A stretch of 64,000 nucleotides of DNA from positions 496,001 to 560,000 of the forward strand of contig NZ_JAXIVS010000005.1 of assembly GCF_034259325.1 (NCBI RefSeq), written 5' to 3'. The notes under the pieces are model-generated. The model saw nothing but the letters and a program-made list of their open reading frames with translations. It was not told the origin of the DNA and searched no databases. Both the position numbers and the translations under genes were made by a program. Positions 7,938 through 55,527 of this stretch are shown piece after piece. The stretch comes from Hyalangium ruber (lineage in GTDB: Bacteria > Myxococcota > Myxococcia > Myxococcales > Myxococcaceae). How positions within the stretch are numbered: position 1 is the first letter of the stretch; each line of letters starts with the position of its first letter.

Positions 7938-9359
7938 ATGGGATGCCGGGAGCGATGGCAACAAGGGGGCGGAAAGCCGCCGCGGAGCGTGGGCATACGT
8001 GCCCTGGGCGTCCTGCTGGTGTTGCTGATGACCACCCCGCTCGTGGCCGCCGAGCGGGTGAAGACGGTGCTCCCCGGGGAGGAACCGCGGCACACGGCCC
8101 TGGCCGCCAGCGCGTCCACTCCGGACAGCCGGATGGGCCTCCGCGAGCCTGAGCTCTGGGCGCGCTACCGCTGGGGAGTGATCGCGGTGCTGGCGGCAGG
8201 TGTGCTCCAGGCGGCGCTCATCGTCGTGCTGTTGATGGAGCGGCGGCGGCGCATGGGCGCCCAGCGGCTGAACCTGGCCGTGCTGGACTCGCTCCCGGGC
8301 GCGGTGGCCATCCTGGACGCGAGCGGAGCCGTGCTACGCGCCAGCGCCCCCTCGGCCCAGCGTGAGGGGCTGGGCGCGCTGTCCACCCAGCGGCTCCTCT
8401 TCCCGGGCCGCTCCTACCTGCAGGCACTCCAGAAGCTCGCGCACGCGGGGGAGCAGGAGACAGCGGAGGTGGCCACGCTGCTGGAGGACATCCTCTCGGG
8501 CCGGGTGGATGAGGGCATGGTGGAGTTCCGAGGTCCCCGGGCGGACACCTGGTTCGAGCTGCGCGCCCGGCGGCTGGAGTTGCCGGGCGGCGGCGCGGTG
8601 GTCACGGTGGTGGACGCAACGCCGCGCAGGCGCGCCGAGTTGGAGGCCCGCCGGGCCCGGGACGAGCGAGCCCACCTGGAGAGGGTGGCCGCGGTGGGCG
8701 AGCTGGGGGCCTCCATCGCCCATGAGCTGAACCAGCCCCTCTCAGCCATTGTCACCAACGCCGAGACGGCACAGCGGCTGCTCCAGCGTACGCCGGCCGA
8801 CCACCCCCTGCTGCGCGAGCTGCTTCAGGACCTCATCGCCGATGGCACGCGAGCGGGAGAGATCATCCGCCGCACACGGGCGCTGCTCAAGAAGGACGAG
8901 GTGCCCTTTGCCTCCCTGGACCTCAACGCGCTGGTACGGCAGGTGGCCCAGATGGTCGGCAACGATGTGCAGCTCCGGGGCGCCACCCTCACGCTGCGCC
9001 TGGGGGACGGCCCCCTGTCCGTGCGGGGCGATGGAGTTCAGCTGCAGCAGGTGCTGCTCAACCTGATCATCAACGCGCTGGATGCGGTGAGCTCGTGCGA
9101 GCCCGAGGAGCGGCAGGTGCGGGTGCGCACCCAGCGAATGGAGGGACGCGTGGAGCTGGTGGTGGAGGACACGGGCGTGGGCTTGAGCCCGGAGGTGCAA
9201 GCGCGCCTCTTCGAGCCATTCTTCACCACCAAGCCGGCGGGACTCGGCATGGGCCTGTCTATCAGCCGTTCCATCCTCGAGCTGCATCAGGGCCGGCTTC
9301 AGGCGGAGCCTCGGCCAGGTCGCGGCACCCTGTTCCGGTGTTCACTGCCCGCGGCCTGA
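7938..9359 (+). CDS. Membrane histidine kinase, FixL/DctB-like
   Basis: 473 residues. A hydrophobic leader (about 22-38, ending PLVAAE) and a transmembrane helix (79-100) enclose only about 40 periplasmic residues. A PAS-like region (about 110-230) leads into the kinase: H262 in IAHELNQPLSA, an N-box (NLIINALDAV), DTGVGLS and GLGMGLS. The HELNQPL form is typical of the FixL/TtrS/DctB subgroup. The segment ELWARYRWGVIAVLAAGVLQ resembles the membrane anchor of kinases that normally carry a large periplasmic substrate-binding domain, here apparently missing. A GTG at 7989 is an alternative start. The FixJ-like regulator 84 bp downstream is the likely partner. Confidence 0.88.
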   Translation: MGCRERWQQGGGKPPRSVGIRALGVLLVLLMTTPLVAAERVKTVLPGEEPRHTALAASASTPDSRMGLREPELWARYRWGVIAVLAAGVLQAALIVVLLMERRRRMGAQRLNLAVLDSLPGAVAILDASGAVLRASAPSAQREGLGALSTQRLLFPGRSYLQALQKLAHAGEQETAEVATLLEDILSGRVDEGMVEFRGPRADTWFELRARRLELPGGGAVVTVVDATPRRRAELEARRARDERAHLERVAAVGELGASIAHELNQPLSAIVTNAETAQRLLQRTPADHPLLRELLQDLIADGTRAGEIIRRTRALLKKDEVPFASLDLNALVRQVAQMVGNDVQLRGATLTLRLGDGPLSVRGDGVQLQQVLLNLIINALDAVSSCEPEERQVRVRTQRMEGRVELVVEDTGVGLSPEVQARLFEPFFTTKPAGLGMGLSISRSILELHQGRLQAEPRPGRGTLFRCSLPAA

Positions 9360-38000: not shown

Positions 38001-39129
38001 GACCTACCCGTTCGAACGGGTCGAGCACCTCATCGAGAAGCCGCGGAGCGTTCAGCCTCCCCCCGCTCCCCTCGTGAAGCCCCCTCCGCTGGATCGGGAT
38101 GCGATCGAGCAGGTCGTCTCGGAACTCTGGCGGGAAGTGCTCGGCGTCCGTTCCATCCGGCCGGACGATCACTTCTTCGATCTCGGCGGGTCCTCGCTCA
38201 TTGCCTTGCAGCTTCGCACCCGGGTGAAGGAGAGGCTCGGCGTCGTACTGCCCATCCACACGCTGGTGGAGAACCCCCGGTTCACGCAGTTGCTGGCCGT
38301 CATCCGGAAAGCGAGCGCCACTTCTCCAGCGGCCCCTGAAGAACAGGCCGCCCCGAGGGAACGCCTGCTGGTCTGCCTCCAGGCTGGGGACCCCGAGGCC
38401 CTTCCCTTCTACCTGGTCCAGCCCATTGGTGGCACGGTCTACTCATACATGAACCTGGCCCGCCTGCTCGGTCCTCAGCAGCCGGTCTATGCCTTTCGCG
38501 CCTCGGGCATCGAGCCAGGGGAACCCATCCATCCCGACGTGCCGACCATCGCGGCGCATCACATCGCGGAACTGCTGGAGCGACAGCCTCGAGGGCCTTT
38601 CCAACTCGGCGGGCATTCCTCCGGAGGTGCCGTGGCCTACGAAATGGCCCGCCAGCTCCACCAGCGGGGGCTGGACGTTGCTCCCGTGTTGCTCCTCGAC
38701 ACACCGCCGCTGCCCCTGAACCAGCTCAAGATCGAGCAGCCCGAGGATCTGCTGCGCCTGGCGGATCCCTTCCGGGAACGGGCGCCCTCCGCATGGGCGG
38801 GTCTTGCCAGCGCGGTCGCCAAAGACTCGCCCTTCCGGGAGTTCCTCATGGTGCATGCGCACGCCCTGGCCTCCTACGCGCCCAGGCGCAGCAAGCTCCC
38901 CCTCGTCTATATCCGCGCCAGGGAGCGAAATGAGGTGCTGGAGTCCCACGCCGAGCGCTGGTGGATGAACCACACCGACGGTGCGTTCTCCATGCACAAC
39001 GTTCCGGGCGATCACTTCACCATGATGGAGTTCCCCCATGTCGCGGCCGTGGCCCGCCTCGTGCGCCAGAACCTCCTAGGAGCCGAACAGGGAGCCTACC
39101 CACACAGCGAGGGAGCAAAGGATCACTGA
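29044..39129 (+). CDS. Hybrid NRPS-PKS: C-A-PCP-C-A-PCP-KS-AT-ACP-TE
   Basis: 3361 residues carrying a complete small assembly line. C1 has HHLISDG at 134-140. A1 has TSGSTGTPKG at 612-621, and PCP1 has S1002 in LGGHSL. C2 has HHSVTDG at 1192-1198. A2 starts its core at T1667, and PCP2 has S2060. KS: C2294 (TACSTS), H2430 (HGTAT), H2470 (NLGH). AT: S2742 (GHSLG) and the substrate motif GASH ending at H2841. ACP: S3051. TE: S3192 (GGHSSGG) and H3324 (GDH). No KR, DH, ER, E or MT domain is present, so a two-amino-acid chain extended once by a malonate-type unit would keep a beta-keto group on release. An N-terminal C domain suggests acylation of the first amino acid or an upstream donor. Hand-aligned specificity residues are D-M-Y-C-I-A-G-V-F-K (A1) and D-T-F-Y-V-A-A-T-F-K (A2); A2 looks aliphatic, A1 is unassigned. 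There is no MbtH, PPTase or tailoring gene alongside. Confidence 0.95.
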   Translation: MKHPTLFPLSFEQERMWFLSKLHGAAPAFHERGGAWLQGPLDLLVLKQTLAEVAQRHEVLRTTFVEVDGQPAQRIADTIDLPWREADARTTEEEALSVAREEVSRPFDLEHGPLWRVCLIKLEPQRHLLVVTMHHLISDGDWTLGLLFSELFSLYTARCEGRSADLPIPQLQYRDHALWQREHLRGEKIARQLTWWREQLQGVSPALDLPVDRPRPSMQGFAGGTVERRMSPALGQAARELAEKEGVTLFAVLLSGLQAVLHRYTHQDDINVGTPLAGRQHPGVRQLLGYFGNPVVLRGRVGDDPSFRQLVLRTQQDFTHAQAQGELSFKDLVEALAPARDLSRPPLFQVLFVLRDAWLSPLTSPALTLTPVDIELPFVAYELIASVRDLGTDLSLKLEYNRKLFFPESAEQLLGHWEALLHGALETPEQRISEIPLLSAEQSHQLLYAWNQTQADYPKDSTIYETFQEQVRRAPEAVALVSGGRQLSYRELERRAHRLACELRDRGVRADDRVALFTQRSPETIIAMLAILGAGGAYVPLDPELPAERLAWMIEDAQARLVVAVGSSPLPLSIEGLELLRIEATETPAADEELAPLPSEARSDNLAYILYTSGSTGTPKGVGIIQRSVVQLAFHADLSPDDRVLQGATYSFDMSVYEIWGALLKGARVVIGARDVTLSPQALGEELRRQAITVCCLTPAMFNTLVREEPRLFQPVRTVIVAGDVLDPHWIRVALQAGNTRLFNGYGPTETTVFTHLHPITEVPEGATSIPLGRPIPNVQVYVLDRHLKPVPRGVPGELYVGGAGLARGYWRRPELTQERFIPHPFSQEPGARLYRTGDLVRYQPGGLLDFLGRIDHQVKIRGFRIELGEIEAVLVEHPAVKQVVVTARVLGSGDKQLVAYVVPRASPSPSITELREYLTRKLPAYMVPAFFVMLDALPLNPNGKVDRRALPIPEETRPELEQEFVAPRTPTQQALATIWKEILSLDRVGLHDDFFALGGHSLRALQVTSRIRQHFQVDVPLRSFFSHPTLASLADLVSQTQGGQQAAPSITSASRGAVVPLSFAQERLWFLQQLAPASAAYNYPAFFRMHGPLDADALEKSLQVLVSRHESLRTRFSEIDGQPMQVIAAHLPLRIERIELRSLPREEQEQEVHRRAEAEARRPFNLHRAPLLRANLLTLGDDEHVLLLNLHHSVTDGWSMDVLYSELEALYGALPQGQPPALPTLALQYADYAAWQRQWAETPAMEEQLTWWKNQLAGAPPVLELPTDRPRPPVQDFRGARVPFQIGRETTAALRALSAQERVTPTMVLLAAFQALLHRYAGQEEFLVGMPHASRERSELAGVVGFFVNTLPMRADLSGAPSFRTLLARVRETSLGAHEHAEVPFERLVKALRPDRDLSTLPLVQVMFAPQVSKLGQLKLDGLGVEPLDLDPGRAPFDLTLLSWEEADTLAGQWEYATALFDRSTLERMAGHLCRLLEGAVRQPDALLSGLPLLAEEERQQLLVRWNDTAVDYPRDSTIPEAFAEQVLRAPESVAVRFGSRQLTYRQLDQRANQLAWRLRRMGVGPDSRVAIAMERSLELVIALVGILKAGGAYVPLDTDYPRERLALMLEASRPDALITTTALLPKVPAQGLGHLLMDEARLEEEPTSAPDSGVTARNLAYISFTSGSTGRPKGVCIEQRSVLRLVKNIRYAELGPGETLLLASILSFDTSTFELWGSLLTGATLAVFPPHPPADALELTEVVARHGVTCLYLSSGLFAQAVDVAAQRLASVPSLRHIVVAGDVLSAPHTRRMVELGVTVTNAYGPTECTTFATAWRMEPHSRVEDPVPLGQPISNTTCYVLDEHMQPVPIGVAGELYLGGDGLARGYMGQPELTAERFVPDPFGSEPGGRLYRTGDRVHWRSDGALEFLGRLDTQVKVRGHRIELAEVETALLSFPSVSKAVAVAREDSPGQKRLVGYVVAPPELDMAVLRTHLTEHLPRYMQPSALVRLETLPLTLPGKIDRRALPAPSTTRPGSEQSFVAPRSELEHTLGAIWQEVLGVERVGVEDAFFDLGGHSLLLAQVRVRIRERLERDIGLVTLFQYPTIRQLAAHLSPNEGEAPRVSAPQEKAAPPLARQEHAIAIIGMAGRFPGARSPRELWELLSDGREGLSRFTRESLDASDLPPELRRDPSFVPTMGLVEEAAHFDAAFFGYSPQEAQLTDPQQRLFLECSWEALEDSGYDPRRYPGGIGVFGGAGVPRYWLQQVAMQGSPRGSSGDYRTIVGNGNDFLATRVAYKLGLRGPALSLQTACSTSLVAIHLACQSLLSRQCDMALAGGVSLFSLTPSGYPYEEGGILSPDGYCRPFDAQAQGTVPGSGVGVVVLKRLEEALADGDTIHAVILGSAINNDGAQKVGYTAPSIEGQVEVIAKAQAAAAVTPETLSYVEAHGTATPLGDPIEVAALTKAFRRGAVPKQSCALGSLKSNLGHLDAAAGVTGLLKVALSLEHELIPATLHFQRPNPELALEDSPFFVNAQPRAWPRGERPRRAAVSSFGIGGTNAHAILEEAPARAPSGPSRPWQLLPLSGRTPTALESMTDRLSEHLRQQPELQLPDVAFTLQQGRVAFEHRRVVISQKRDAAISSLASRESAKVFEGVVPPQPPQVIFMFPGGGTQHVGMGHELYQGEPVYREALDRCADLFGQELGCNLRSLLFAEEAHRAEATSQLLRPSLNMASIFSTEYALAQLLLSWGVRPSALTGHSLGEYAAATLAGVLSLEDAVALVALRGRLCDAMPESAMLSVPLPEEALSAKWAQEVSIAAINGPAHCVVAGRKEAIDRLEAKLRLGGIETQRLWLAGASHSPLVEPFAARLTERAASMKLQAPVTPLVSNLTGTWMSPADARDPSYWARHLRGTVRFADGLSTLLAMPAPVLIEVGPGKVLASLARLHAQTGQARLVASTLSTPSSDRGDLETLLGAVGKLWCVGGELDWAAFSRQERRQRVPLPTYPFERVEHLIEKPRSVQPPPAPLVKPPPLDRDAIEQVVSELWREVLGVRSIRPDDHFFDLGGSSLIALQLRTRVKERLGVVLPIHTLVENPRFTQLLAVIRKASATSPAAPEEQAAPRERLLVCLQAGDPEALPFYLVQPIGGTVYSYMNLARLLGPQQPVYAFRASGIEPGEPIHPDVPTIAAHHIAELLERQPRGPFQLGGHSSGGAVAYEMARQLHQRGLDVAPVLLLDTPPLPLNQLKIEQPEDLLRLADPFRERAPSAWAGLASAVAKDSPFREFLMVHAHALASYAPRRSKLPLVYIRARERNEVLESHAERWWMNHTDGAFSMHNVPGDHFTMMEFPHVAAVARLVRQNLLGAEQGAYPHSEGAKDH

Positions 39130-42744: not shown

Positions 42745-44262
42745 TCAGGCCTGGCTCTTCGGGAGCGTGACGGTGCCCGGTTTCTCGATGGCGGCGAGCG
42801 CAGCGCGCCGCAGGTAGTGCCCCGGGTCCTCTCCGCGCAGGCGCGCCGTCTCGATGAGCGAGTAGAAGAGAGCGGCCACCTCGGTGCCGCGCTGGGACTT
42901 GCTGCCGTAGTGGTTCTTGCGACCCAGCACCACGTCTCGCATCTGTCGCTCGACGTGGTTGTTATCCAGAGGCACCCGCGGGTTGTGCAGGAACACCGTC
43001 AGTCCGTTCCACAGCTCCAGCATGTACTCAAGGGTCTTGCGAAAGGTGCTGTCGGGCAGCGCCTTCTGAGACAGTGCCCACGCTTTGATGCGCTCGATGA
43101 GGGGGGTGGACTGCTGCTGGCGCACGGCGAGCCGATGGGTCAGCACCTCCTGCTGCGCCTTCTCCTCCAGTTCATGCCAGTCTGGGAGGTCTTCCTCAAT
43201 GGCATACAGCTGACCGATGAGCGTCAGCACCTGCTCGCAGCAAGGCTCGAACTTGAGCGCCTCCACGAATTTGCGCCTCACGTGGGCCCAGCAGAAGGCC
43301 AGGGTGGCGGGCGCGGGCCCCTCAGCACTGGCCTTGGTGGCCGTCTGGTACGCCGCGTAGCCGTCCACCACGACAACACCCTGGAAGTCTCCGAGCACCG
43401 TCTTGGCCGTGGCGCCCGAGCGACTGGGGAAGATGCGGTGGTACACCGCGTCCGGCGAGGCCACCGTCCACACGTACCACTTCTTTCCAGGGCCCTTGTC
43501 CAACAGGTACCAGAGGGTTTCATCCGCGTGGATCAGCGGTGAGGTGAATACCTCGGCCAGCAACGCCTCGTAGCTTTTGTGAAGGTGGCGGGCCAATGCC
43601 TCGAGCTGATCCCACAGCGTCTGGCGCTCCACCACCAAGCCCTCGCGCTGGAACATGCGCTGCTGGCGCGCCAAGGGCAGGTGAAAGGCATACTTCTGCA
43701 AGGCCACGTGGACGGCGAATTCCACCGAGTAACGGCCACCCTCCACCAAGCGTGGCGGGGTGGGCGCTGTCACCGGCGCTCACCCTTGAGGGCAGCGGTA
43801 CTTCTGACGGTGCAGCTTACGCAGCACGAAGTGGCGCTCCACCACGGTGATTTCTTCGCTGTCCTCTGTCTGCCCCTTCCACTCGTGCAGGGCACCACCG
43901 CATAGGCCACACACCTGGTCGGCTTCGTCCAGTGGCAGCAGCACCTCTTGGACGGGCAGCTCGGGCTGCACTCGCGGGCCATGGCCCGGCTGCTGCCGCG
44001 TGCGCTGCGGCGGCGGCTCGGGCGCCGACACGGGGCGCTTCTCGCTGGAGGCGCCGTACAGGCGCTGTTGCATCAGCGAAAGCTGCTCCTGGAGCTGGGT
44101 GAGCTCGCGCTGCAGCAGCTGCTGGGCGTCCTTGCCCTTGAGCCGGGCAATCTCCGCCACCAACTGCTCCAGCCGCTGGTGCAGCCGCTCATTCTCGGAC
44201 TGAAGCAGCCGAGCCACCTGTTTGGCCGTGTCTAAGTCTGGCAATTCGTCGATGAGCACCAT
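42745..44262 (-). pseudogene. tnpC: IS66 transposase TnpC, interrupted by an in-frame TGA
   Basis: Two frames in the same register (44262-43780 and 43773-42745) make a 505-codon IS66 transposase of normal length. The first part has the leucine-zipper-like QLVAEIARLKGKDAQQLLQR region and a zinc ribbon (CGLCGGALHEW, then YRCPQG). The second has the DDE residues: Asp in LIHADETLWYL, Asp in VVVDGYAAY and Glu in DNNHVERQMR. The break is a TGA at 43782-43780 exactly where the last zinc-ribbon Cys should be, before APVTAPTPPRLVEGG; a TGC/TGT to TGA change explains it. Restart at a GTG just after would give a transposase without its DNA-binding part. Confidence 0.88.
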
Positions 44263-44277
44263 CCTACTCTACAGGTG

Positions 44278-44371
44278 CTACGACGCGTGGCCCACCGCCA
44301 GGGTTTTTTCTTCGAAGGCCGGTGGCGACAACTTCCAGCGGCCTGCCAGCTCGCACCCCTCCAGGAACAGC
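44278..44371 (-). pseudogene. tnpB: IS66 tnpB, 3' fragment
   Basis: On the minus strand, directly upstream of tnpC, the frame reads LFLEGCELAGRWKLSP and ends GHAS-stop. This matches the C-terminal end of IS66 TnpB proteins (LLEG motif) and is the expected neighbour of tnpC. It is cut at 44371, where the inverted block begins with a second IS end. The matching 5' part is on the other strand (44849-45092). Confidence 0.75.
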
Positions 44372-44656
44372 GTAAGACCTCGCCGTGCCCCGTCGTGACG
44401 GGTTCTCCTTCTCGTGAGACCACCTGCGGCCACACACCAGGAGGTGGTCGGTGGAGTTGGAGAAGGAATTGGAGCAGTTCCGTCAGGAGGCGCAGCGGCT
44501 GAAGGCTGGGCGGCGCAGTGGCTCGTTGCCGTTCCCTGAGGCGCTGCGCGTCTTCGCGGTGCGCTATGCCGAGCACACCGTGGCGGCGGGAGGGACGGTG
44601 ACGGACGCGGCGCAGAAGCTGGGGGTGTCCGGGCCGACGCTCTACGAGTGGCGCAA
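44372..44656 (+). repeat. 285-bp inverted repeat, arm 1 (IS66 left end plus tnpA 5' part)
   Basis: Starts with GTAAGACCTCGCCGTGCCCC and runs through the first 68 codons of tnpA. The same sequence appears in reverse at 45093-45377; the encoded 68 residues are identical, and identity stops after GTGGCGCAA in both arms. Confidence 0.88.
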
Positions 44657-44855
44657 GGGCCGTCCCGCAGGACACCGCCGTCCGAAGTCCACCGAGCAGG
44701 GCGCGGCCCTGGTGCCAGTGCGCGTCGGCGAGCGTCGCGCCCAAGCCCAGGTGGCTGGAGTGCAGGCGATGGCGCTGGTGTCGCCAGGCGGCTGGCGAGT
44801 CGAGGGCCTCAGCGTGGAGAGCGCCGCGCAGTTGCTGGGGAGACTGGGGTGCTGA
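44451..44855 (+). CDS. tnpA: IS66 accessory protein TnpA (intact copy)
   Basis: 134 residues from a GTG start with AGGAGG six bases upstream. The N-terminal half is the helix-turn-helix of IS66 orfA: FPEALRVFAVRYAEHTVA, then GTVTDAAQKLGVSGPTLYEW. The tail ends with WRVEGLSVESAAQLLGRLG, the usual bridge into tnpB, whose GTG overlaps its stop. It is encoded inside the inverted block of the element. Its function in transposition is accessory and not well defined for the family. Confidence 0.88.
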   Translation: MELEKELEQFRQEAQRLKAGRRSGSLPFPEALRVFAVRYAEHTVAAGGTVTDAAQKLGVSGPTLYEWRKGRPAGHRRPKSTEQGAALVPVRVGERRAQAQVAGVQAMALVSPGGWRVEGLSVESAAQLLGRLGC

Positions 44856-45092
44856 CGCTCACGCGCGCGGTGCGCGTCTTCGCGTACGCGGCCCCGGTGG
44901 ACATGCGCAAGGGCTTCGATGGACTGAGCGCCCTCGTCGAGCAGCAGTTGGAAAGGCAGTTGCTCAAGGGGGATGTGTTCCTCTTCGTGGGCCGGTGCCG
45001 GCGTCGGGCCAAGGTGCTGCACTTCGACGGCACAGGCCTGGTGCTGCTCACCAAGAGACTCTTCCGGGGACGCTTCGCCCGGCCCTGGTGCG
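44849..45092 (+). pseudogene. tnpB: IS66 tnpB, 5' fragment
   Basis: From GTG 44849 (overlapping the tnpA stop) the frame reads VDMRKGFDGLSALVEQQL and FRGRFARPW, the core of IS66 TnpB. It breaks off at 45092, where the inverted tnpA arm begins; beyond this the frame stays open to 45673 but encodes the wrong strand of tnpA. About 80 of roughly 115 codons remain. The 3' end lies on the opposite strand at 44278-44371, with roughly 40 bp apparently lost. Confidence 0.8.
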
Positions 45093-45298
45093 TTGCGCCA
45101 CTCGTAGAGCGTCGGCCCGGACACCCCCAGCTTCTGCGCCGCGTCCGTCACCGTCCCTCCCGCCGCCACGGTGTGCTCGGCATAGCGCACCGCGAAGACG
45201 CGCAGCGCCTCAGGGAACGGCAACGAGCCACTGCGCCGCCCAGCCTTCAGCCGCTGCGCCTCCTGACGGAACTGCTCCAATTCCTTCTCCAACTCCAC
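45093..45298 (-). pseudogene. tnpA: IS66 tnpA, 5' fragment (inverted copy)
   Basis: On the minus strand the first 68 codons are identical in protein sequence to the intact tnpA at 44451; after the shared GTGGCGCAA the sequence switches to the antisense of tnpB. It is the outer-element copy of tnpA, truncated by the inverted block. Confidence 0.85.
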
Positions 45299-45377
45299 CG
45301 ACCACCTCCTGGTGTGTGGCCGCAGGTGGTCTCACGAGAAGGAGAACCCGTCACGACGGGGCACGGCGAGGTCTTAC
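45093..45377 (-). repeat. 285-bp inverted repeat, arm 2
   Basis: Reverse copy of 44372-44656, ending at 45377 with the complement of GTAAGACC. It marks the right border of the element. Confidence 0.88.
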
Positions 45378-45954
45378 CCTGGGACTGGCCACTCGGTCTG
45401 TGGAACTGGCTCCAGTTGAGGGGCCATCGCAACTCGCATGGTATTGAGCGCTTGGCAGCAGTTGCCCACAAGCCCCGACCCCCGACCTCCGCCACGCCTC
45501 CATGGAAGGACAGCCTGGGCAGGTGTGTGACCCACGGGATTGCCCGCCCTCTGCTCCAGCCCGGCGCGCAGCCCTTGGCGAACCCCGCAGCAGCCCTCCC
45601 CTCCCTCTCTGCTCTAGCACTTGAGCCTCAACTGGGGCCCCATTCCTCCTATTTCTGCCTACCGCTCAGGTAAAGGCACGGGGAGGGGGTCAGTTTTAGT
45701 GTCGCGAGGGGGCAACCTTGCTGTCGCTCTACAGGGGGCGAGTCCGCCGCCAACGTCTCTTGCCAGCTCCGAAAGGGCCTGACTAAGGACCCGAGTTTGA
45801 ACGAAGGCGGGGCGCGCAGATGTCTGATTGCCCACGAGTATCTTCTTTCCATGCAAGCCGGGTTTGACTCAGCACCGGGATGGTTCCTACACTGTCCGTG
45901 AATAATTTCCGCGCTGGGAATACAACAGCCGCCTACACCCGCCGTCGAGCGAGC
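45378..45954. other. Non-coding stretch between the IS element and the lanthipeptide locus
   Basis: About 580 bp with no gene I can support. Several open frames exist on both strands but none has a recognisable domain or start. A GC-rich, repeat-poor sequence with a GGGGTCAGTTTTAGTGTCGC stretch could be a remnant of another mobile element. Any promoter for the lanthipeptide genes must lie here, but no box is clear. Confidence 0.4.
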
Positions 45955-46533
45955 ATGTGCATGGCAGATGATCGGCAGCAGATCTTTCGAGAGAAAGCGC
46001 TTCGTCTCTACATGGCAAACAGCCAGAAGATGGTGCTTCCCCGACTGATTCGTCCGAGGGCGTTGGGGTATTTCTGGGGGCTCATCGCGCTGCTGGGGTT
46101 GGGGGCCGGGCTCCTCTCGTCCGTGCAGGTGCCGGTTCACGTGACGGGCCGCGGCTTGATCGTGGCGAGAGATTCTCCCACTGGGACCGAACTCGTCCTT
46201 CTGGCTCTGCTTCCACCCGACAGCCGCGTCGACCTCGCCCCGGCGCAGCACCTACTCGCCCGCTTTGCTACGAACCGTGAGCCCTTGCGCGCTAGCGTAA
46301 TGTCCGTGGAATCCCACGTCATGAGCCCTCAGGCCATCCGGGAGCGTTTCTCTCTGGACGCGGCATTGTCAGGGAGCGTGACGGAGCCCGCTGCCGTCGC
46401 GGTGGCAAGGGTCGAGTTCATCCCAGGGGAAATCCCTTACGTGGCCTACGCCGGCAGCATCTCCCACATCGAGGTGGTGACCGGCACACGCCGGATCATC
46501 GACTTGGTGCCAAGGCTCCACTCGTTTCTCTAA
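45955..46533 (+). CDS. Short HlyD-family membrane adaptor (lanthipeptide export)
   Basis: About 192 residues. The start FREKALRLYMANSQKMVLPR, one membrane helix (GYFWGLIALLGLGAGLL) and VPVHVTGRGLIVARD match the N-terminus of HlyD/LcnD-type adaptors that pair with C39 peptidase exporters. The rest resembles the beta-barrel part (VEFIPGEIPYVAYAGSIS). The long coiled-coil hairpin and lipoyl halves of standard adaptors (about 400 residues) are absent. It precedes the C39-ABC exporter by 31 bp. The first in-frame ATG is 45880; the start at MCMADDRQQ fits the family better, and 45961 is equally possible. Confidence 0.75.
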   Translation: MCMADDRQQIFREKALRLYMANSQKMVLPRLIRPRALGYFWGLIALLGLGAGLLSSVQVPVHVTGRGLIVARDSPTGTELVLLALLPPDSRVDLAPAQHLLARFATNREPLRASVMSVESHVMSPQAIRERFSLDAALSGSVTEPAAVAVARVEFIPGEIPYVAYAGSISHIEVVTGTRRIIDLVPRLHSFL

Positions 46534-46564: not shown

Positions 46565-48883
46565 ATGCAACGTCAGCGCCGTGTCCCAGTCATCCTGCAA
46601 CAGGCCAACGCAGAGTGCGGCGCTGCCTGCTTGGCCATGATCTTAGGGTACTACGGCCGCAAGACCAGCATCGCCGAACTGCGTGAGTGCGTCGGGGCCG
46701 GTCGCGATGGCATCAAGGCGAACGTCATCACTAGGGTCGCGCGAGAGATGGGGCTGCGGACCCGGGCCTACTCGGGGCAGCCGGAGCACTTCGCATACAT
46801 CACGCTGCCCGCGCTCATATTCTGGGAGTTCAAGCACTACGTCGTCGTAGAGCGCTGGACTCCCCAGCAAGTGGACATTGTGGATCCGGCGATCGGTCGT
46901 CGGAGCCTGACGCAGGAGCAGTTCGACGCCGGCTTTACCGGCGTGGTCATCACCTTCGAACCTGGGGTTCAGTTCTCCCGCAAGTCCGGTGACTCGATAG
47001 GCACTTGGCGCACCTACCTCCAGCACATGCTCGCCGTCCCCGGGCTGCGCGCGGGGCTGGTGCAGATCATCGCGGCTTCGTTCCTGTTGCAGGTGCTGGG
47101 CCTGACACTGCCCATCGCCACCAAGGTCGTCGTCGACTACCTGCTCCCCGCACGGATCCCGGACCTGCTGACGATCCTGGGGTGGGGGCTCGTCATCACC
47201 GTAGTGATGCAGGTCGTCACAAGCTATCTGCGCGCCGCCTTGCTCCTCTACCTCCAGGCGCGCCTCGATGCCCAGATGATGCTTGGCTTCTTCGAGCACA
47301 TGCTCAGCCTGCCCCTCGCATTCTTCCAGCAGCGTAGCACTGGCGATCTGATCATGCGCCTGAAGAGTAACAGCATCATCCGCGAGGTGCTGACAAACCA
47401 GACGCTCGCTGCGGTGCTCGATGGCAGCTTGGTGCTGGTCTACCTCTCAGTGCTCTTCCTCCTGGCGCCGCTTTTTGGCGCGGCCGTGCTCGTCATCGGC
47501 GCCGTGCAGGCCGCAGTGCCCGTGCTCACCGCGCGCCGGGTCAATGCGCTCCTACAGGAGGAGATCACCGCCGACTCGGCATCCCAGGGGTACTTGGTGG
47601 AGGTGCTGACGGGGATGGTCACGCTCAAGGCCACCGGCGCGGAGAACCACGCTCTCGACCGATGGTCGAACCTCTTCTTCAATCACCTTAACACGTCCCT
47701 CAAGCGCAACCACCTCGCGGCGCTCATCAACGTCTCCACATCCGCGCTGGGCTTGGTCGCCCCCCTGGCGCTGCTCTACCTCGGGGCCCGGTTCGTTCTG
47801 GAGGGTCAACTGAGCCTTGGCACCATGCTCGCCCTCAACACGCTGGGCATTGCCGTGCTGCGGCCCCTCTCCTCGCTGGTCGCCGTGGTGCAGCAGCTCC
47901 AATTCGGCGCGGCCCACTTCGCGCGACTGTTCGACGTCCTCTCGGCTGAGCCCGAGCAAGCCGCGCGCAAGGAGGCGTCCACGCCCAGGCTCTCCGGCCA
48001 AGTCGAGTTGCGCAACGTGAGCTTCCGCTACAACCCTCATGCTCCCTACGTGCTGCGGGACATCTCGCTGCGCATCGAGCCAGGGCAGAAGATCGCCATC
48101 GTGGGACCGACGGGCTCGGGAAAGACGACCTTGGGGCTGCTCCTGCTAGGCCTCCACGTGCCCACGGAAGGAGAGATCCTCTACGATGGGATCCCGCTCT
48201 CGGACCTGAGCTACCGCGACGTCCGCAGTCAGTTTGGCGTGGTGCTGCAGGAGCCGTCGATGTTCTCCGGCTCCATTCGCCACAACATCGCGTTCACGAG
48301 GCCAGACGTTCCGCTTGAGGAGGTTATGCGGGTGTCCCGGCTGTCCGCCGTTCACGACGAGATCATGCAGATGCCCATGCGGTACGAGACCCTCATATCG
48401 GAGCGTGGGACCTCTCTGTCCGGCGGGCAGATGCAGCGGCTGGCCATCGCTCGGGCACTCCTCAACGAGCCCGTACTGCTCCTGCTGGACGAGGCCACCA
48501 GCCACCTTGATGTCCTGACCGAGTCGCAGATCGAGCGCGAGTTGGCGCGGCTTCGCTGCACGCGCATGGTCATTGCCCACCGGCTGAGCACCGTCCGCGA
48601 TGCGGATCGCATCCTGGTCATGAATGCCGGGAGGATCGTCGAGCAGGGCATGCATGAAGAACTGCTGCGCCAGGGCGGCTTCTATGCCTCGCTGATCAGT
48701 AAGCAGCTTGAGGCGGACCAGAACGCCCTTCCGCCACTCGAATCCAAGGAGAACGACGGTGCGTGGCCCCTCCTCGTCAAGACCCCGACTCTCGAACAAG
48801 GCCGGTTGTGCAGCGGCAATCAAGACTCAACCCCCAAGGCGGAAGACCATGTCGAACATCATCAAGGCCTGGAAGGATGCTGA
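46565..48883 (+). CDS. lanT: Bacteriocin ABC exporter with C39 peptidase (LanT)
   Basis: 772 residues. The N-terminal C39 peptidase (about 5-135) has Q12, C18 in NAECGAACLAM, H91 in EFKHYVVVE and D107 in IVDPAIG; it cuts leaders after a double glycine. A six-helix membrane domain follows (about 160-440). The ATPase has Walker A GPTGSGKTT with K520, LSGGQMQR near 617 and LLLLDEATS. It should cleave and export the two GG-leader precursors encoded next. The last 30 or so residues are encoded in DNA that is repeated upstream of the second precursor, and its stop lies 35 bp inside the first precursor gene in another frame, so the natural C-terminus was probably shorter. Confidence 0.94.
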   Translation: MQRQRRVPVILQQANAECGAACLAMILGYYGRKTSIAELRECVGAGRDGIKANVITRVAREMGLRTRAYSGQPEHFAYITLPALIFWEFKHYVVVERWTPQQVDIVDPAIGRRSLTQEQFDAGFTGVVITFEPGVQFSRKSGDSIGTWRTYLQHMLAVPGLRAGLVQIIAASFLLQVLGLTLPIATKVVVDYLLPARIPDLLTILGWGLVITVVMQVVTSYLRAALLLYLQARLDAQMMLGFFEHMLSLPLAFFQQRSTGDLIMRLKSNSIIREVLTNQTLAAVLDGSLVLVYLSVLFLLAPLFGAAVLVIGAVQAAVPVLTARRVNALLQEEITADSASQGYLVEVLTGMVTLKATGAENHALDRWSNLFFNHLNTSLKRNHLAALINVSTSALGLVAPLALLYLGARFVLEGQLSLGTMLALNTLGIAVLRPLSSLVAVVQQLQFGAAHFARLFDVLSAEPEQAARKEASTPRLSGQVELRNVSFRYNPHAPYVLRDISLRIEPGQKIAIVGPTGSGKTTLGLLLLGLHVPTEGEILYDGIPLSDLSYRDVRSQFGVVLQEPSMFSGSIRHNIAFTRPDVPLEEVMRVSRLSAVHDEIMQMPMRYETLISERGTSLSGGQMQRLAIARALLNEPVLLLLDEATSHLDVLTESQIERELARLRCTRMVIAHRLSTVRDADRILVMNAGRIVEQGMHEELLRQGGFYASLISKQLEADQNALPPLESKENDGAWPLLVKTPTLEQGRLCSGNQDSTPKAEDHVEHHQGLEGC

Positions 48884-49043
48884 TTTCCGCACGGATTTGA
48901 GCGCCGAGGAGCGCGCGCTGCTCCCCGAGAACCCTGCCGGAATGCTCGAGCTGACCAACGAGGCGCTGCCCGAGGTGGTCGGCGGCCCCTCGTGTATGTG
49001 CTGGAGCGGCTGCGGCTCCGACGAGACGCAAAAGGAGAACTGA
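48849..49043 (+). CDS. lanA1: Class II lanthipeptide precursor, mersacidin/lichenicidin type (1)
   Basis: 64 residues. The 46-residue leader starts MSNIIKAWKDADFR, contains LSAEERALLPENPAG and ends EALPEVVGG, the pattern of mersacidin/lichenicidin-family leaders cut by C39 peptidases after GG. The predicted core is PSCMCWSGCGSDETQKEN: Cys at core positions 3, 5, 9 and Ser at 2, 7, 11, plus Thr 14, so up to three thioether rings are possible. It overlaps the 3' end of lanT by 35 bp. LanM encoded downstream should dehydrate and cyclise it. Ring pattern and activity are not shown. Confidence 0.9.
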   Translation: MSNIIKAWKDADFRTDLSAEERALLPENPAGMLELTNEALPEVVGGPSCMCWSGCGSDETQKEN

Positions 49044-49151: not shown

Positions 49152-49346
49152 ATGTCGAATATCATCAAGGCCTGGAAGGATGCTGATTTCCGCACGGAGC
49201 TGAGCGCCGAGGAGCGCGCGCTGATCCCCGAGAACCCTGCCGGAATGGTCGAGCTGACCGACGAGGCGCTGTCCGACGTGGTCGGCGGCCCCTCGTGTGT
49301 GTGCTGGAGCGGCTGCGGCTCCGAGGAGGTGCCGGGCGAGACCTGA
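49152..49346 (+). CDS. lanA2: Class II lanthipeptide precursor, mersacidin/lichenicidin type (2)
   Basis: 64 residues, preceded by AAGGAG. The leader is nearly the same as in precursor 1 and ends LSDVVGG. The predicted core is PSCVCWSGCGSEEVPGET. The ten-residue block with Cys 3/5/9 and Ser 2/7/11 is unchanged except Met to Val at position 4, while the tail differs and its only Thr is the last residue. Because both cores keep the same block, the two peptides probably share ring topology. They could form a two-component pair, but the cores are so alike that redundancy or variant production is more likely. Confidence 0.9.
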   Translation: MSNIIKAWKDADFRTELSAEERALIPENPAGMVELTDEALSDVVGGPSCVCWSGCGSEEVPGET

Positions 49347-49474: not shown

Positions 49475-50545
49475 ATGAAGTACACGACGCGAGATTACCT
49501 GGACATTGTCGCTCCTCATGTCCCCCAGCGGCTCATTGATGTGAACAGCATGAACCGGCTCGCCGAACTCGCCGCAACACTGCCGCCATCCTCGAACTTC
49601 GGCTTCGAGTGCAAGTTGGGGAGCCCGGCGCCCACGGCCGACTTCCTGATCGCCGTCATTGCCTCCGACGGCAGCCGGGGTGCATGGGCAGAAGAGGCCC
49701 GACAGGCGCGGGGGCGACGCTCGCACCCGGCCTGGGAGAAGGTTCAGCGCTTCCTGGCAGACTGGGAGCGCAGCGAAGGCGGCTTCGAGCCCATCTACGA
49801 CACATGGCTGGAGTTCGACATGGACGGGCAGGACTCTGAGGAGCCCGTCCCCAGCTTCTTCTTTGGGTTCGATCACACCCGGAACGACAACTACCCGGAT
49901 ACTACCCGCACCATGGTGGAGAGGCTACGTGCGGCGCCTCTGCCGAGCGCCGGACTCGATACCCTGAGTGCCTGCTTCAAAGAGCTGCCACAGCGAGCGC
50001 AGGTGTTCCAAATTGGACTGATGCTCTCTCGCCCCACAGATGCGGTACGGCTCTGCATCAAGCGGCTCACAGCCGAGCAGATCGCCACCTACCTGAGCCA
50101 CATCGGTTGGCCGGGCTCAGTGGCCGTGCTGCAGCGCCAACTCGAGTCCATCGCGCCGCTGGTAGATGGTATGGGGCTCGATCTCGACATCGGCCAGTCC
50201 GTGCTGCCCAAGATTGGCATCGAGTGCAGCATTCGTGACGGCAGTGATGGGCGAGACAAGGTCAAGGCCTTTCTGGAGCGCTTGAGCACCGAAGGGTATT
50301 GCACCCCCGGCAAGGGGACGGCCATCCTTGAGTGGCTGGGGCTTTGCACCGAGCGCACTGATCGGGAGCGCTGGCCAGCTCACCTGATCAAGGCCTCCGA
50401 GGGCCTTGGCCCCGAGGTGCTGAGTTCCTTCGCGAGGACCTTGAACCACATCAAGATCAACTACGAGTCAGACCAGGAGATCGCCGCGAAGGCCTACCTG
50501 GGCGTGAGGCACTATTGGATTCGCACCCGAGCGGGAACCTCGTGA
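49475..50545 (+). CDS. Unassigned protein coupled to LanM
   Basis: 356 residues, cytoplasmic, no signal or membrane helix. I do not recognise a family by motif. It has a series of evenly spaced strand-like blocks (NFGFECKLGS, YDTWLEFDMDG, FQIGLMLSR, LPKIGIECSI, HIKINYESD then AKAYLGVRHYW) alternating with helices. This pattern could fit an alpha-beta-beta-alpha barrel such as that of ABBA prenyltransferases; that is a guess from pattern only. It lies between the precursors and lanM, and its stop overlaps the lanM GTG start by 4 bp, so it is surely expressed with the synthetase. A role in tailoring or in presenting the precursor is likely. Confidence 0.75.
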   Translation: MKYTTRDYLDIVAPHVPQRLIDVNSMNRLAELAATLPPSSNFGFECKLGSPAPTADFLIAVIASDGSRGAWAEEARQARGRRSHPAWEKVQRFLADWERSEGGFEPIYDTWLEFDMDGQDSEEPVPSFFFGFDHTRNDNYPDTTRTMVERLRAAPLPSAGLDTLSACFKELPQRAQVFQIGLMLSRPTDAVRLCIKRLTAEQIATYLSHIGWPGSVAVLQRQLESIAPLVDGMGLDLDIGQSVLPKIGIECSIRDGSDGRDKVKAFLERLSTEGYCTPGKGTAILEWLGLCTERTDRERWPAHLIKASEGLGPEVLSSFARTLNHIKINYESDQEIAAKAYLGVRHYWIRTRAGTS

Positions 50546-53500
50546 GCCCATCCGTCCTGCCGCAGTCTTCCTGGTATCATGCCCTCTCGCTGCGTGAGCG
50601 GCTTGGGTTGCTACGTGCTGCCCGTGCCCCGGCCCCGGTGAATCTGGAGCGTGCCGAGAAGCGCCTCGCGCGATGGAGGGCGCAAGCGCCCTTCTCCATG
50701 AGGGACTCCTTCGAGCAGCGGCTCGCCGCTGATGGAGTGAGCCGGGATGAGCTACTCACACTGCTTGGCGAGTCGATCGAGGTGGCCGCGGAGCGCTGCG
50801 CTGCAGAGCCCGAGTGGGCGTGCGCAGTGCGCGAGAGCCTGGAGGCTAGGCTCCCCGAATCCCCCCGGCTCGCCCTGCCATCGCACTGGAAGAGCAAACC
50901 CGGCGGCGAGTTCTGGGGCTTCATCGAGCCTCTCATCCGGCGGGCTCATGCCAAGCTCGAAGCCGGGGCCAACAAGCTGCTCCGCGCCCGCGTCCACGTG
51001 CCGCTCTCGCGAGAGTCGCTCGGCGACCTGCTCATGAGCTGCCTGCCGGACGATCTGCTCAAGGCGATGCTCCGGACGCTGGTCCTAGAGCTGAACGTCG
51101 CGCGGCTGCAGGAGCAACTGAAGGGCCAGAGTCCCCAGGAGCGGTACCGCGAGTTCGCCGCGCGCATCTCAACCGCCGAGTCGGCGCTAGCGCTCTTCGC
51201 GGAGTACCCGATCCTGGCGCGGCAGCTCGTTTCCTACGCCGACGACTGGTGCCGCACGACGTTGGAACTGCTCGAAAGGCTCTGCCAGGACTGGCCGCTC
51301 ATCACTCGCGCCTTCGAGGAGGCCGATCCTTCCGGCGTACTGGTAGGCATTGATGGCGGCGCGGGTGACAAGCACCGGGGTCGGGCCTCGGTGGCCCTGC
51401 TGCGCTTCAGCACGGGGTTCCAGCTCGTCTACAAACCGAGATCCCTAGCCGTCGATCTCCACTTCCAGGAGCTGCTAGGGACCTTCAATGAATGGGGCTT
51501 CCAACCGACATTTCGGAGGCTCCGCGTCTTGGACCGGGGCGCCTACGGCTGGGTGGAGCGCATCGACGCACGGGGGTGCGGTTCGCTGGCCGAGGTGCAA
51601 CGCTTCTACCGCCGCCAGGGAGGGTACTTGGCCGTCCTCTATACCCTGCGGGCGACGGACATCCACTTCGAGAACATCATTGCCAATGGGGAGCACCCCA
51701 CTCTCGTCGATCTTGAGTCGGTCATTCACCCGGTAGTGAAGCGCAATGATCTGGGCGCCGGGGACTTCCTGAGCGAATCCATCCTCCAGGTAGGGCTCCT
51801 GCCCATCCGCATCTGGGAGAATGAGAGTTCACCAGGTATCGACGTGAGCGCCCTCGGTGTCGAGGAAGGTCAGCTCACGCCTCGCGCAGACCCCTACTGG
51901 TCCGGCTCGGGGACGGATCAGATGCGTATGACGCGCAAGCACCGGAAGTTCTCGGGCCAAGGCCACCATCGCCCCACGTTCGAGGGGCGCCCAATCCCGG
52001 CGCTCGAACACGTCGCGGAGATCGTTGGCGGCTTCGAGGACATGTATCGGCTCATTCTCTCAAGACGCAGCGAACTGCTGGCCGACGACGGCCCGCTCCG
52101 GCGGTTCGAGCGGGACGAGATCCGCGTGCTGCTGCGCCCCACCGTGCTCTACAGCCTGATGTTGCAGGAGAGCTCGCACCCGGACTTCTTGCGTGACGAA
52201 CTCGATCGGGAGCGCTTCTTCGACAAGCTCTGGGTGCAGGCGCAGGAGCGCGCGTACCTGCGCAGGGTGATCAGTGCAGAGAAGGCGGATCTGCGGCGCG
52301 GGGACATTCCTGCCTTCATGACGCTGCCGGGCTCCCGGGATCTCTGGACGAGCACGGGCGAGCGCCTCCCGGACTTCCTCGCGGAATCGGCCATGAGCCA
52401 GGTGCATGCGCGGCTGGAGGATCTGGGCGAGGGTGATCTGAAGCAGCAGCTATGGTTTATCCATGCGTCGCTCGCGATCTTGAGTACGAGCAACGTAGAG
52501 CACGAGCGCAGTCCAGCCCTGGAGCCTACCTCGGCGCCAACGAGGCACATCACCGCAGAGAGGGTGCGACGGCTCGCCACCCTTATAGGTGATCGCCTCT
52601 GTGATGTAGCCATGGAGGAGGGCGACGACGTGCATTGGCTGGGCCTCGTCCCCAATCGGCACCGCCAGTACACCATCGCCTCCCTGAACGAGAACCTCTA
52701 CAGCGGCACGTCGGGGATTGCGTTGTTCCTGGCCTATCTCGGGCAGATCACGGGGGAAGCCCGGTACACGCAGATGGCCCACAGGGCATGCCGCGCCATC
52801 CTTCAGAAGCTCCGGGAGCAACGCCTCGTGGTCGAGGGGATAGGGGCATTCGAGGGGCTGGGAGGGATTGTCTACACCCTCCACCACCTTGCAGCCCTGT
52901 GGGATCAGCCCAAGTTCCTGACCGACGCGCAGAGCCTGTTCAGGCTCATATCGGAGCGGATCGAAGGAGATGAGCGGCTGGATGTCATGGGAGGCGCGGC
53001 CGGGTGTCTTCTCGCGCTCTCGACGCTGTGGCGGCGCGAGCCCTCCGAGGAACTTAGGGGCCTCATGCTCCGCTGTGGCGAACGGATCGAACAGAGAGCC
53101 GTGCAGACAGCCCAAGGGACTGGGTGGTTGACCACTGGTGAGTCTAATCAGCCGCTCACGGGCCTCTCTCACGGAGCGGCCGGGATCGCGGCAGCCCTCT
53201 TCGAGCTGTCTGCCATCGAAGGCACGGAGCGATTCCGGAAGCTGGCGCTCGAGGGGCTGCACTACGAGCGCAGCCTGTTCTCGCCAGAGCATGGCAACTG
53301 GCCGGATGTACGCACCGAGAGCGAGCGCTTCGCGCGGTTCAACTGGTGCCATGGAGCACCCGGGATCGGACTTGCGCGCCTGCGCATCCTGGGACACGAG
53401 GAGACGCCGGAACTCCGCGCCGAGATCGAGATAGCCGTGAGGACGACCCTGGCCCACGGTTTCGGCAGGAACCACTCGCTGTGCCACGGCGACCTCGGCA

Positions 53501-53778
53501 ACCTCGACCTGCTGCTCGCTGCGAACGCCTCGCTCCCCAGCCTGCACGTGCAGGGCGAGCTCGATCGGCTTGCCGCGAAGATCGTGGAGGACATTGAGGC
53601 TCGCGGCGCGCGGTCTGGCCTACCCCTGGGCGTCGAGACCCCCGGGTTGATGGTTGGGTTGTCGGGTATCGGCCTGGGGCTGCTGCGGATCGCGGCACCG
53701 GAGCGGGTGCCGTCGGTGCTGTCGCTCGCGCCACCGTCCGCGAGGGTGAGCTCAAGTCAGGGCCCGCGCTCCGCCTGA
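50542..53778 (+). CDS. lanM: Class II lanthipeptide synthetase
   Basis: 1078 residues from GTG 50542, chosen for the GTGA overlap with the preceding stop. The N-terminal dehydratase (about 150-640) has the kinase-like residues that phosphorylate Ser/Thr before elimination: K298 in LVYKPRS, D373 and N378 in RATDIHFENI, and D390 in LVDLES. The C-terminal LanC-like cyclase (about 690-1060) has the double-glycine helices GTSGIALFL and SHGAAGIAAAL and the zinc ligands C936 (NWCHGAPG) and C981-H982 (SLCHGD). All key residues are present, so it should be active on the two precursors. Length is normal for LanM. Confidence 0.95.
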   Translation: MSPSVLPQSSWYHALSLRERLGLLRAARAPAPVNLERAEKRLARWRAQAPFSMRDSFEQRLAADGVSRDELLTLLGESIEVAAERCAAEPEWACAVRESLEARLPESPRLALPSHWKSKPGGEFWGFIEPLIRRAHAKLEAGANKLLRARVHVPLSRESLGDLLMSCLPDDLLKAMLRTLVLELNVARLQEQLKGQSPQERYREFAARISTAESALALFAEYPILARQLVSYADDWCRTTLELLERLCQDWPLITRAFEEADPSGVLVGIDGGAGDKHRGRASVALLRFSTGFQLVYKPRSLAVDLHFQELLGTFNEWGFQPTFRRLRVLDRGAYGWVERIDARGCGSLAEVQRFYRRQGGYLAVLYTLRATDIHFENIIANGEHPTLVDLESVIHPVVKRNDLGAGDFLSESILQVGLLPIRIWENESSPGIDVSALGVEEGQLTPRADPYWSGSGTDQMRMTRKHRKFSGQGHHRPTFEGRPIPALEHVAEIVGGFEDMYRLILSRRSELLADDGPLRRFERDEIRVLLRPTVLYSLMLQESSHPDFLRDELDRERFFDKLWVQAQERAYLRRVISAEKADLRRGDIPAFMTLPGSRDLWTSTGERLPDFLAESAMSQVHARLEDLGEGDLKQQLWFIHASLAILSTSNVEHERSPALEPTSAPTRHITAERVRRLATLIGDRLCDVAMEEGDDVHWLGLVPNRHRQYTIASLNENLYSGTSGIALFLAYLGQITGEARYTQMAHRACRAILQKLREQRLVVEGIGAFEGLGGIVYTLHHLAALWDQPKFLTDAQSLFRLISERIEGDERLDVMGGAAGCLLALSTLWRREPSEELRGLMLRCGERIEQRAVQTAQGTGWLTTGESNQPLTGLSHGAAGIAAALFELSAIEGTERFRKLALEGLHYERSLFSPEHGNWPDVRTESERFARFNWCHGAPGIGLARLRILGHEETPELRAEIEIAVRTTLAHGFGRNHSLCHGDLGNLDLLLAANASLPSLHVQGELDRLAAKIVEDIEARGARSGLPLGVETPGLMVGLSGIGLGLLRIAAPERVPSVLSLAPPSARVSSSQGPRSA

Positions 53779-53807: not shown

Positions 53808-55193
53808 TCAAGTAGAGAGCGATGGGAAGAAGCTCCGGTTGAGCAGGCCCTTGGGATCATATTTGCGCCGAGCCTCCTGAATGGCGGGCCATGCGTCGCC
53901 GAACTGCTGTGCTAGGCGGGGCTCGTCGAGCCTGACCGAGCCCGTGAGGTAATAGGTCGCCCCCATCCTCATGGCCAGATCGACGAAGCCCTGGGCAGCC
54001 GCCAGGGTGACCTGCCCGTAGGCCTGGGGAACACGCGAGTACAGACCGAACCCGGTGAACATCAATTCGTTGGGGACTCGGAGCATGGGCCGCGTGAGCA
54101 CCGCGCGTGTCATGGGCCACAGCACCATGTGCTCGACGTGGACAATGTTGGGGTAGATGTGCTCCTCCGTCGCCTTGATGAACCGCTCGAGGCTGGACCA
54201 GGGCACCAGCACATCAGTGAAGACGTGAGCCACCTTGGGGCTGAAGGGACGCTCGTCAGCCCGCCCAATGAGGGTGAAGTCCGGCATGCTCAGATCCTCG
54301 GTGTGGATCCACCGGCGGAACTTCAAACCCTCAAGCACCCGCGCGTCGTCAATCGCGTCCGCGCTCTGGGCCTCCAGAGTGACGTTCATCGGGTAGGAGA
54401 ACGAGAAGAGCGACTTCTGGCGCCCGTCCACCACCCGAGGGCCGTGATAACAGCTCTGAATCGAGGAGTCGATGTAATCGAAGCGCCGCTCCTCCATGAT
54501 GCGCACCTGATCCTCAAGGAGGGCGCCCACTTCGTCATAAAGGAGGAAATAGGTGCGGGTGTGCGGCAGGAAGCGGCGTAGGCGGTGCCGGACGCGAGTG
54601 ATGATGCCGAACTGGCCATAGCCGCCGAGCACGTGCGAGAAGAGCTCGGCATTCTGGTCCGCGCTGCACCGGACGATCTCGCCATCGTAGAGGACGACCT
54701 CCAGTTCGAGGCAGTGCTCGATCTGGGTGCCGCGGCTGAACGTCGAGGAGCCGAAGCCTGCGGCGGAGTGCGTCCCGCCTACCGTGGTGCGCAAATAGCT
54801 GGGAAAGACTGGCGGCAGCACACCCAGTGGCAAGGTAGCCTCGGCCACCTCCTTCCACATGGCCCCTGCCGCAGCCTCGAACCAACCGGCTTCGACGTTG
54901 ACAGGCCCAATGCCTCGGAGCTGGCGCAGGTCGATGCTCATGCCCCCTTCGTTGAGTGACTGGCCCGCGAACGAGTTGCCTCCCGCCCGCGGGGTGATGG
55001 GGATGTCGTGCTCGTAGGCATACTTGAGGACGCGTGCGACCTCCTGCGCGCTGCGAGGACGAACCGCGACGCGCGGGGTCTTCTGCATGATCTTGCCGAA
55101 ATCGAGCGAGATCTCAGCAAGCTCCGAGGGAGAGTCGATCACCTCACCTTTGATGAGACCCCGGAGGTCGGAGAGGAGGCTGTTTTGCGACAT
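53808..55193 (-). CDS. FAD-linked oxidase (PCMH/berberine-bridge-like)
   Basis: 461 residues from MSQNSLLSDLRGLIKG. The FAD-binding domain is typical: RSAQEVARVLKYAYEHDIPI, PRAGGNSFAGQSLNEGG (pyrophosphate loop) and TTVGGTHSAAGFGSSTFSRG, then YGQFGIITRVRHRL. The C-terminal motif KYDPKGLLNRS is the usual end of this oxidase class. It is convergent with lanM with 29 bp between stops. If it serves the lanthipeptide it could oxidise the peptide; equally it may be independent. No Cys or His flavin-attachment motif is obvious. The longer upstream frame lacks support. Confidence 0.85.
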   Translation of the reverse strand: MSQNSLLSDLRGLIKGEVIDSPSELAEISLDFGKIMQKTPRVAVRPRSAQEVARVLKYAYEHDIPITPRAGGNSFAGQSLNEGGMSIDLRQLRGIGPVNVEAGWFEAAAGAMWKEVAEATLPLGVLPPVFPSYLRTTVGGTHSAAGFGSSTFSRGTQIEHCLELEVVLYDGEIVRCSADQNAELFSHVLGGYGQFGIITRVRHRLRRFLPHTRTYFLLYDEVGALLEDQVRIMEERRFDYIDSSIQSCYHGPRVVDGRQKSLFSFSYPMNVTLEAQSADAIDDARVLEGLKFRRWIHTEDLSMPDFTLIGRADERPFSPKVAHVFTDVLVPWSSLERFIKATEEHIYPNIVHVEHMVLWPMTRAVLTRPMLRVPNELMFTGFGLYSRVPQAYGQVTLAAAQGFVDLAMRMGATYYLTGSVRLDEPRLAQQFGDAWPAIQEARRKYDPKGLLNRSFFPSLST

Positions 55194-55527
55194 GGCACGC
55201 TCAAAGAGACAACGAGGAAGGCCGCCTCCTCCACTAAAGAGGCATCGTCTGACGGAGATACTCAGCGACTTTGATGGGAGGTTCAACGGCTAGGTGCGGC
55301 TGGACACGCCCACGACGGTCTATGGGATGGGTAGGAGCAGGCCAGCAAGGTGCCTTCGCGCATTTCTTGCGATACTGCGAGGCTCGAAGAACATCCGTAC
55401 CGCACCGGGAAGGAGTTCTCCATGACGCGACTGAGGGGCCTGCTAATACTGCTGGCGGGGGAAGGGCCGCCGCAGAGACGACTACAGCTCTGGTGCTGAC
55501 GGAGGAGCTGAATGGCTGCCTCCTAGC
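55194..55527. other. Intergenic stretch with a broken short frame
   Basis: About 330 bp without a gene I can support. A plus-strand ATG at 55422 begins a signal-peptide-like MTRLRGLLILLAG, and a one-base shift would join it to AAAETTTALVLTEELNGCLLA-stop, suggesting a decayed small secreted protein. No other structure is evident. Confidence 0.35.

Follow-up and report, generated by a model that had tools for sequence, protein, structure and literature searches.

The closest described counterpart of the protein considered here is MppC, a lanthipeptide Trp geranyltransferase from the mpp cluster of Moorena producens PAL, which puts a geranyl group on C5 of Trp82 of the precursor MppE, the substrate being cyclised by LanM and still carrying its leader (PMC12715784). 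MppE is composed of a 77-aa Nif11 leader and an ACWRWSG core (PMC11791876), and the structured nucleus of the Nif11 leader is reported to be necessary for MppC, in which Trp336 and Phe340 are leader contacts (PMC12715784). In NctPC an ABBA prenyltransferase is fused to an MstE-like cyclase and targets a peptide Trp, and NctPC has been described as having low similarity to the cyanobactin prenyltransferases (reviewed in PMC13290415). The latter (LynF/TruF/PagF/LimF, TIGR04445) also combine the ABBA fold with a RiPP context, but act without a leader. As far as the accessible part of the literature goes, published biochemical proof of lanthipeptide prenylation has so far concerned cyanobacterial enzymes.

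The subject of this report, X, is a putative ABBA-type peptide prenyltransferase of 356 aa with a core Trp as its proposed target, assigned by AlphaFold2, PDB matches and identity to a protein of the MppC locus, and encoded at 49475..50545 on the forward strand of the window, i.e. the whole stretch of 64,000 nucleotides of Hyalangium ruber DNA that was analysed. Like MppC, X is found in a LanM cluster together with a core Trp and shares invariant residues with its cyanobacterial counterpart. It is nonetheless new in three respects, namely in belonging to another phylum (myxobacterial rather than cyanobacterial), in being accompanied by short 46-aa mersacidin-type leaders (TIGR03898) in place of the 77-aa Nif11 leader (TIGR03798) of MppE, and in being linked to an FAD oxidase, whereas the halogenase, arginase-like and terpene-synthase genes of the mpp cluster are missing beside it. 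X may be likened to NctPC by description only, in having an ABBA barrel and low similarity to cyanobactin prenyltransferases; unlike NctPC it has a single domain and no cyclase gene in its cluster, although other members of its family are domain-fused or found beside squalene-cyclase-like proteins. From the cyanobactin enzymes it differs in being found with LanM and not with cyanobactin proteases.

The lanthipeptide cluster around X

The first gene of the cluster, on the forward strand like all genes up to lanM, encodes a 217-aa protein (45880..46533) with one N-terminal membrane-like segment, which found no family match in profile searches; its homologue in the L030 locus (31%) sits upstream of LanT, and an exporter accessory role is possible. 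It is followed by LanT (46565..48883), a C39-peptidase ABC exporter with Peptidase_C39, ABC_membrane and ABC_tran domains that is expected to cleave after the GG of the leader, and by two precursors of 64 aa, LanA1 (48849..49043; TIGR03898, E 1e-18), whose frame overlaps the 3' end of lanT, and LanA2 (49152..49346; TIGR03898, E 1.1e-19). Both exceed the curated cut-off of this mersacidin/lichenicidin model, and in both a 46-aa leader precedes the core, which is PSCMCWSGCGSDETQKEN in LanA1 and PSCVCWSGCGSEEVPGET in LanA2. The cores conform to the pattern PSC[MV]CWSGCGS, of which the single Trp, the sixth core residue of LanA1 and LanA2 alike, is the sole aromatic residue of either core.

The reading frame of X runs from an ATG start to a TGA stop at 50543-50545 and is overlapped by the GTG start of lanM (50542-50544) to give GTGA. 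This start of lanM is supported by the window sequence VSPSVLPQSSWYHALSLRERL, since it aligns with the ATG start of the LanM in the L023 locus, MSPTPEPVWYRALTLLERA. LanM (50542..53778) is a class II lanthipeptide synthetase of 1078 aa, made up of DUF4135 and LANC_like (TIGR03897, E 3.7e-285) and carrying the zinc-site motifs WCHG and LCHG. As judged from homologues at 25-39% identity in other genomes of the same family, in cyanobacteria and in Azospirillum, X is a real gene and no chance ORF. The description of X in the earlier note, as a 356-aa ORF between the precursors and LanM that overlaps lanM by GTGA and lacks a recognised family name, is thus borne out by the sequence, and indeed the X family lacks a model in Pfam, NCBIfam and PHROGs, for which reason annotation pipelines miss it.

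Convergent with lanM, and hence on the reverse strand, lies a gene for an FAD_binding_4/cytokinin-dehydrogenase-like oxidase (53808..55286; Pfam). Relatives of this enzyme are found in both of the other myxobacterial loci that hold X and LanM with intact flanks (L023 and L030) and in none of the LanM loci without X, which suggests that the oxidase acts on the same product as X and makes it a candidate for a later tailoring enzyme. Two further features lie upstream of the cluster: remnants of an IS66-type transposase directly adjoin it (42745-45673, with a TnpB_IS66 match at 44648-45673), and a 3361-aa ORF (29044-39129) has an N-terminus that by eye resembles a nonribosomal peptide synthetase condensation domain.

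Predicted fold of X and its relation to MppC

With six sequences as input (the window X and those of L051-L055), one of five AlphaFold2 models of X was confident (pLDDT 80.4, pTM 0.82), and in this model helix pairs alternate with five β-hairpins, giving 10 strands. All 32 Foldseek matches in the PDB at E<=1e-3 are ABBA prenyltransferases, DMATS1 being the best (1e-7) and LimF and KgpF being among them, and no unrelated fold was returned at that threshold. In VIA-align the best match is MpnD (Z 17.5, 285 residues aligned, rmsd 4.1), and the top group of MpnD, FunA, DMATS1, FgaPT2 and CymD scores Z about 17, with some 285 residues aligned. Despite the single confident model, a chance fold match is unlikely, since the match list holds ABBA enzymes exclusively, and the ABBA barrel that had been guessed in the earlier note is accordingly supported by model and PDB comparison alike. 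It should also be mentioned that MpnD, CymD and DMATS1, bacterial or fungal indole prenyltransferases and the best structural matches of X (Z 16-17.5), share about 10% identity with it and have free Trp or small indoles as substrates.

At the sequence level X had no match in Pfam at E<=10 and no useful match among NCBIfam, PHROG or PDB sequences, none of 18 X homologues matched the Pfam families Trp_DMAT or PTase_Orf2 at E<=0.1, and comparison with three TIGR04445 cyanobactin prenyltransferases gave an hhalign probability of 0.4%, indicating no sequence relation and a tie by fold only. This want of a sequence-level link to prenyltransferases in Pfam, NCBIfam or the PDB speaks for the notion that X is no prenyltransferase and resembles the ABBA barrel superficially, but such a notion is hardly credible in view of the facts that the good matches are all ABBA enzymes, at Z 14-17 and over nearly the full length, and that X has full-length homology to the MppC-locus enzyme.

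The latter homology was found with a protein of the cyanobacterial locus L082, with which X shares 34.3% identity over 350 aa (E 1.6e-65). The L082 precursor has 84 aa, a 77-aa Nif11 leader (TIGR03798/PF07862) followed by an ACWRWSG core, and since it thus equals the published MppE in leader length and core, the X homologue of this locus is, as far as sequence can tell, MppC or its ortholog. The lanthipeptide prenylation considered possible in the earlier note is supported by this full-length identity. L082 furthermore encodes a LanM and an amine-oxidase/squalene-cyclase protein, a halogenase-like ORF that was called by its N-terminal motif only, and a possible arginase-like pair, namely two ORFs whose N-termini are related. 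Among 18 family members from myxobacteria and cyanobacteria, comprising X, the MppC-locus enzyme and 16 more, no variation is seen at E45, D56, E113, D115, R186 and R192, nor at D238, E250, K280, K327, K339 and Y341, and a C-terminal K-x11-K-x-Y pattern is common to X and the MppC-locus enzyme. Projecting Trp336 and Phe340 of MppC onto X by the numbering of the L082 protein gave no definite match. The kept charged residues and the K-x11-K-x-Y pattern also weigh against the idea that X retains the barrel but is catalytically dead, or is a chaperone or leader-binding partner of LanM by way of translational coupling. The GTGA overlap and the tight gene order could well serve the formation of a LanM complex, but homologues of X exist where LanM is lacking, next to a Trp-containing peptide and a squalene-cyclase-like protein, and we regard a non-catalytic role as very improbable.

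The window leaders do not match Nif11 but TIGR03898, and the Nif11-like feature reported for recognition by MppC, which concerns the way the substrate is recognised and does not define the enzyme family, is accordingly absent. X is for this reason better seen as a variant than as a plain MppC-type member, and it would have to read the leader in a manner unlike MppC or to use the C-terminal part of the leader only.

Core tryptophan and neighbourhoods of X homologues

Of 98 genomes around the host, its own included, 16 hold homologues of X (15 of the 97 others), some of them with several paralogues. Further homologues occur in 15 of 386 cyanobacterial genomes and on cyanobacterial and Azospirillum plasmids, and among the genomes that bear a name are Corallococcus exercitus, Archangium violaceum, Anabaena and Goleter. 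A scan of genome contigs with the single X protein gave no match, and one alignment was too divergent for patterns. LanM is present in 15 of the 50 loci that hold X. The gene order LanT-LanA-X-LanM of the window recurs in L030 and in L051 (Corallococcus exercitus), that of L023 is LanA-LanT-X-LanM, and X immediately precedes LanM in all three. The survey for co-occurrence with lanM that the earlier note had proposed therefore finds that homologues do adjoin RiPP genes. Cyanobacterial members adjoin Nif11 or NHLP-type precursors, many of which have KW at their end, and LanM may be present or absent.

HMMs of the leader alone served to pick out precursors, both in X-bearing loci and in LanM loci that lack X; some of these models derive from precursors that adjoin X. 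A core Trp is seen in 36 of 45 distinct precursors beside X versus 11 of 63 in X-less LanM clusters (Fisher 7e-11), a difference that also holds when mersacidin-type leaders alone are counted (8/8 versus 9/54; Fisher 7e-6) and per locus (22 of 25 with X versus 11 of 41 without; 2e-6). The excess persists after relatives are collapsed at 70, 60 and 50% identity (p = 4e-7, 0.003 and 0.02) and is not significant at 45% (p 0.15). Other core residues differ too, Cys being rarer beside X. We can conclude that the Trp trend is real, although the independent lineages behind it are modest in number, and that it supports rather than proves a role of the Trp, which as the candidate site put forward in the earlier note is favored by this enrichment. 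Furthermore, the L098 locus has a LanM and the Trp-containing core ASCGWSSC with no X within the 14 kb examined, so that Trp conservation does not require X. The LanM cluster of L098 (3128-6904) further encodes a glycosyltransferase of macrolide type (59% to that of L030), which has a counterpart in L023 as well.

Conversely, X is present in L056 and L089 while a core Trp is absent from the adjoining precursors, those of L089 having Tyr in their cores, and a sub-clade (L033-L047) stands beside a LigA/IniB-like small protein with no recognised RiPP precursor. ABBA and RiPP prenyltransferases are moreover known to modify Ser, Thr, His, Arg and Tyr (PMC12715784), and X could thus be an ABBA prenyltransferase with a target other than the core Trp, such as a Ser, Thr or Cys side chain, a small molecule or a partner protein. 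The window X however falls, together with L023, among the LanM- and Trp-associated members of the family, and Trp is the only aromatic residue that the two window cores have to offer; a different target is improbable in this case.

Several members of the family are found in other surroundings. In L024-L029 (e.g. L025:7708-10473) compact arrangements are formed by X, a short peptide with a mersacidin-like leader and a C-terminal QAW[QE], and a squalene-hopene-cyclase-like protein, without LanM, and the product is possibly a terpenylated RiPP. The cyclase-like protein has DADST where DxDD is expected, and its single-sequence AlphaFold model was poor (pLDDT 44). In L028 X homologues follow a 1758-aa ORF, which had prompted the idea that X has a role in polymorphic-toxin immunity, but this ORF is mostly a spurious frame with a squalene-cyclase-like C-terminal part, and the idea was rejected. 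Cyanobacterial X homologues of more than 560 aa occur in L057 (8974-10767), L084 and L085, that of L057 with a 2OG-Fe(II) oxygenase domain; they adjoin a conserved protein of about 600 aa, of which the L057 copy has no Pfam match, in LanM/Nif11 clusters whose precursors have KW at their end. The members of the L033-L047 sub-clade (e.g. L043:7216-8784) directly follow the above-mentioned conserved protein, which has about 165 aa and a LigA/IniB-like N-terminus, and by its gene content this myxobacterial clade is not obviously a RiPP system. In L039/L048 (e.g. L048:429-1250, 7037-9178) X is fused to an N-terminal domain of about 350 aa without a Pfam match, and tandem small peptides ending in HTSHTSDGWF are found some kilobases from the fusion gene.

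Proposed function and significance

Taken together, the observed order of the genes, the predicted fold of X, its homology to the enzyme of the MppC locus, the co-occurrence and the enrichment of Trp lead us to infer that X is very probably a soluble MppC-type ABBA (PT-barrel) peptide prenyltransferase, acting on the core Trp in a leader-dependent manner after or together with cyclisation by LanM. In the course of events envisaged for this enzyme, X would bind the LanA precursor with the leader still attached and needed for docking, ionise an allylic diphosphate inside its barrel, and transfer the isoprenoid, which by analogy with MppC would be a C10 unit, to the indole ring of the lone Trp in the core PSC[MV]CWSGCGS. 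By that stage the thioether rings would most likely already have been made by LanM. LanT would then cut the leader after GG and export the lipidated lanthipeptide, and the FAD oxidase encoded alongside may act on it as an additional tailoring enzyme. By the same analogy, the cluster probably makes a lipid-tagged, i.e. prenylated, lanthipeptide. Enzymes of the berberine-bridge type oxidise or cyclise the prenyl groups of prenylated aromatics, and a more elaborate scheme, which we put forward tentatively and are inclined to doubt, is that the mersacidin-type lanthipeptides of myxobacteria receive a prenyl group on a Trp embedded in a ring, and that this group is subsequently oxidised or cyclised by the FAD oxidase, the sister clade making LanM-free terpenylated peptides by way of X and the squalene-cyclase-like protein. 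An FAD oxidase step on a prenylated Trp would, if true, give a previously unseen meroterpenoid lanthipeptide scaffold.

If X functions as proposed, it could be put to use as a tool with which to prenylate lanthipeptides of class II. Furthermore, since MppC is reported to need the Nif11 nucleus, X makes the reading of a short leader by an ABBA enzyme testable, and lanthipeptide prenylation would come to include predatory myxobacteria as well as the mersacidin-type leader, which is a common one.
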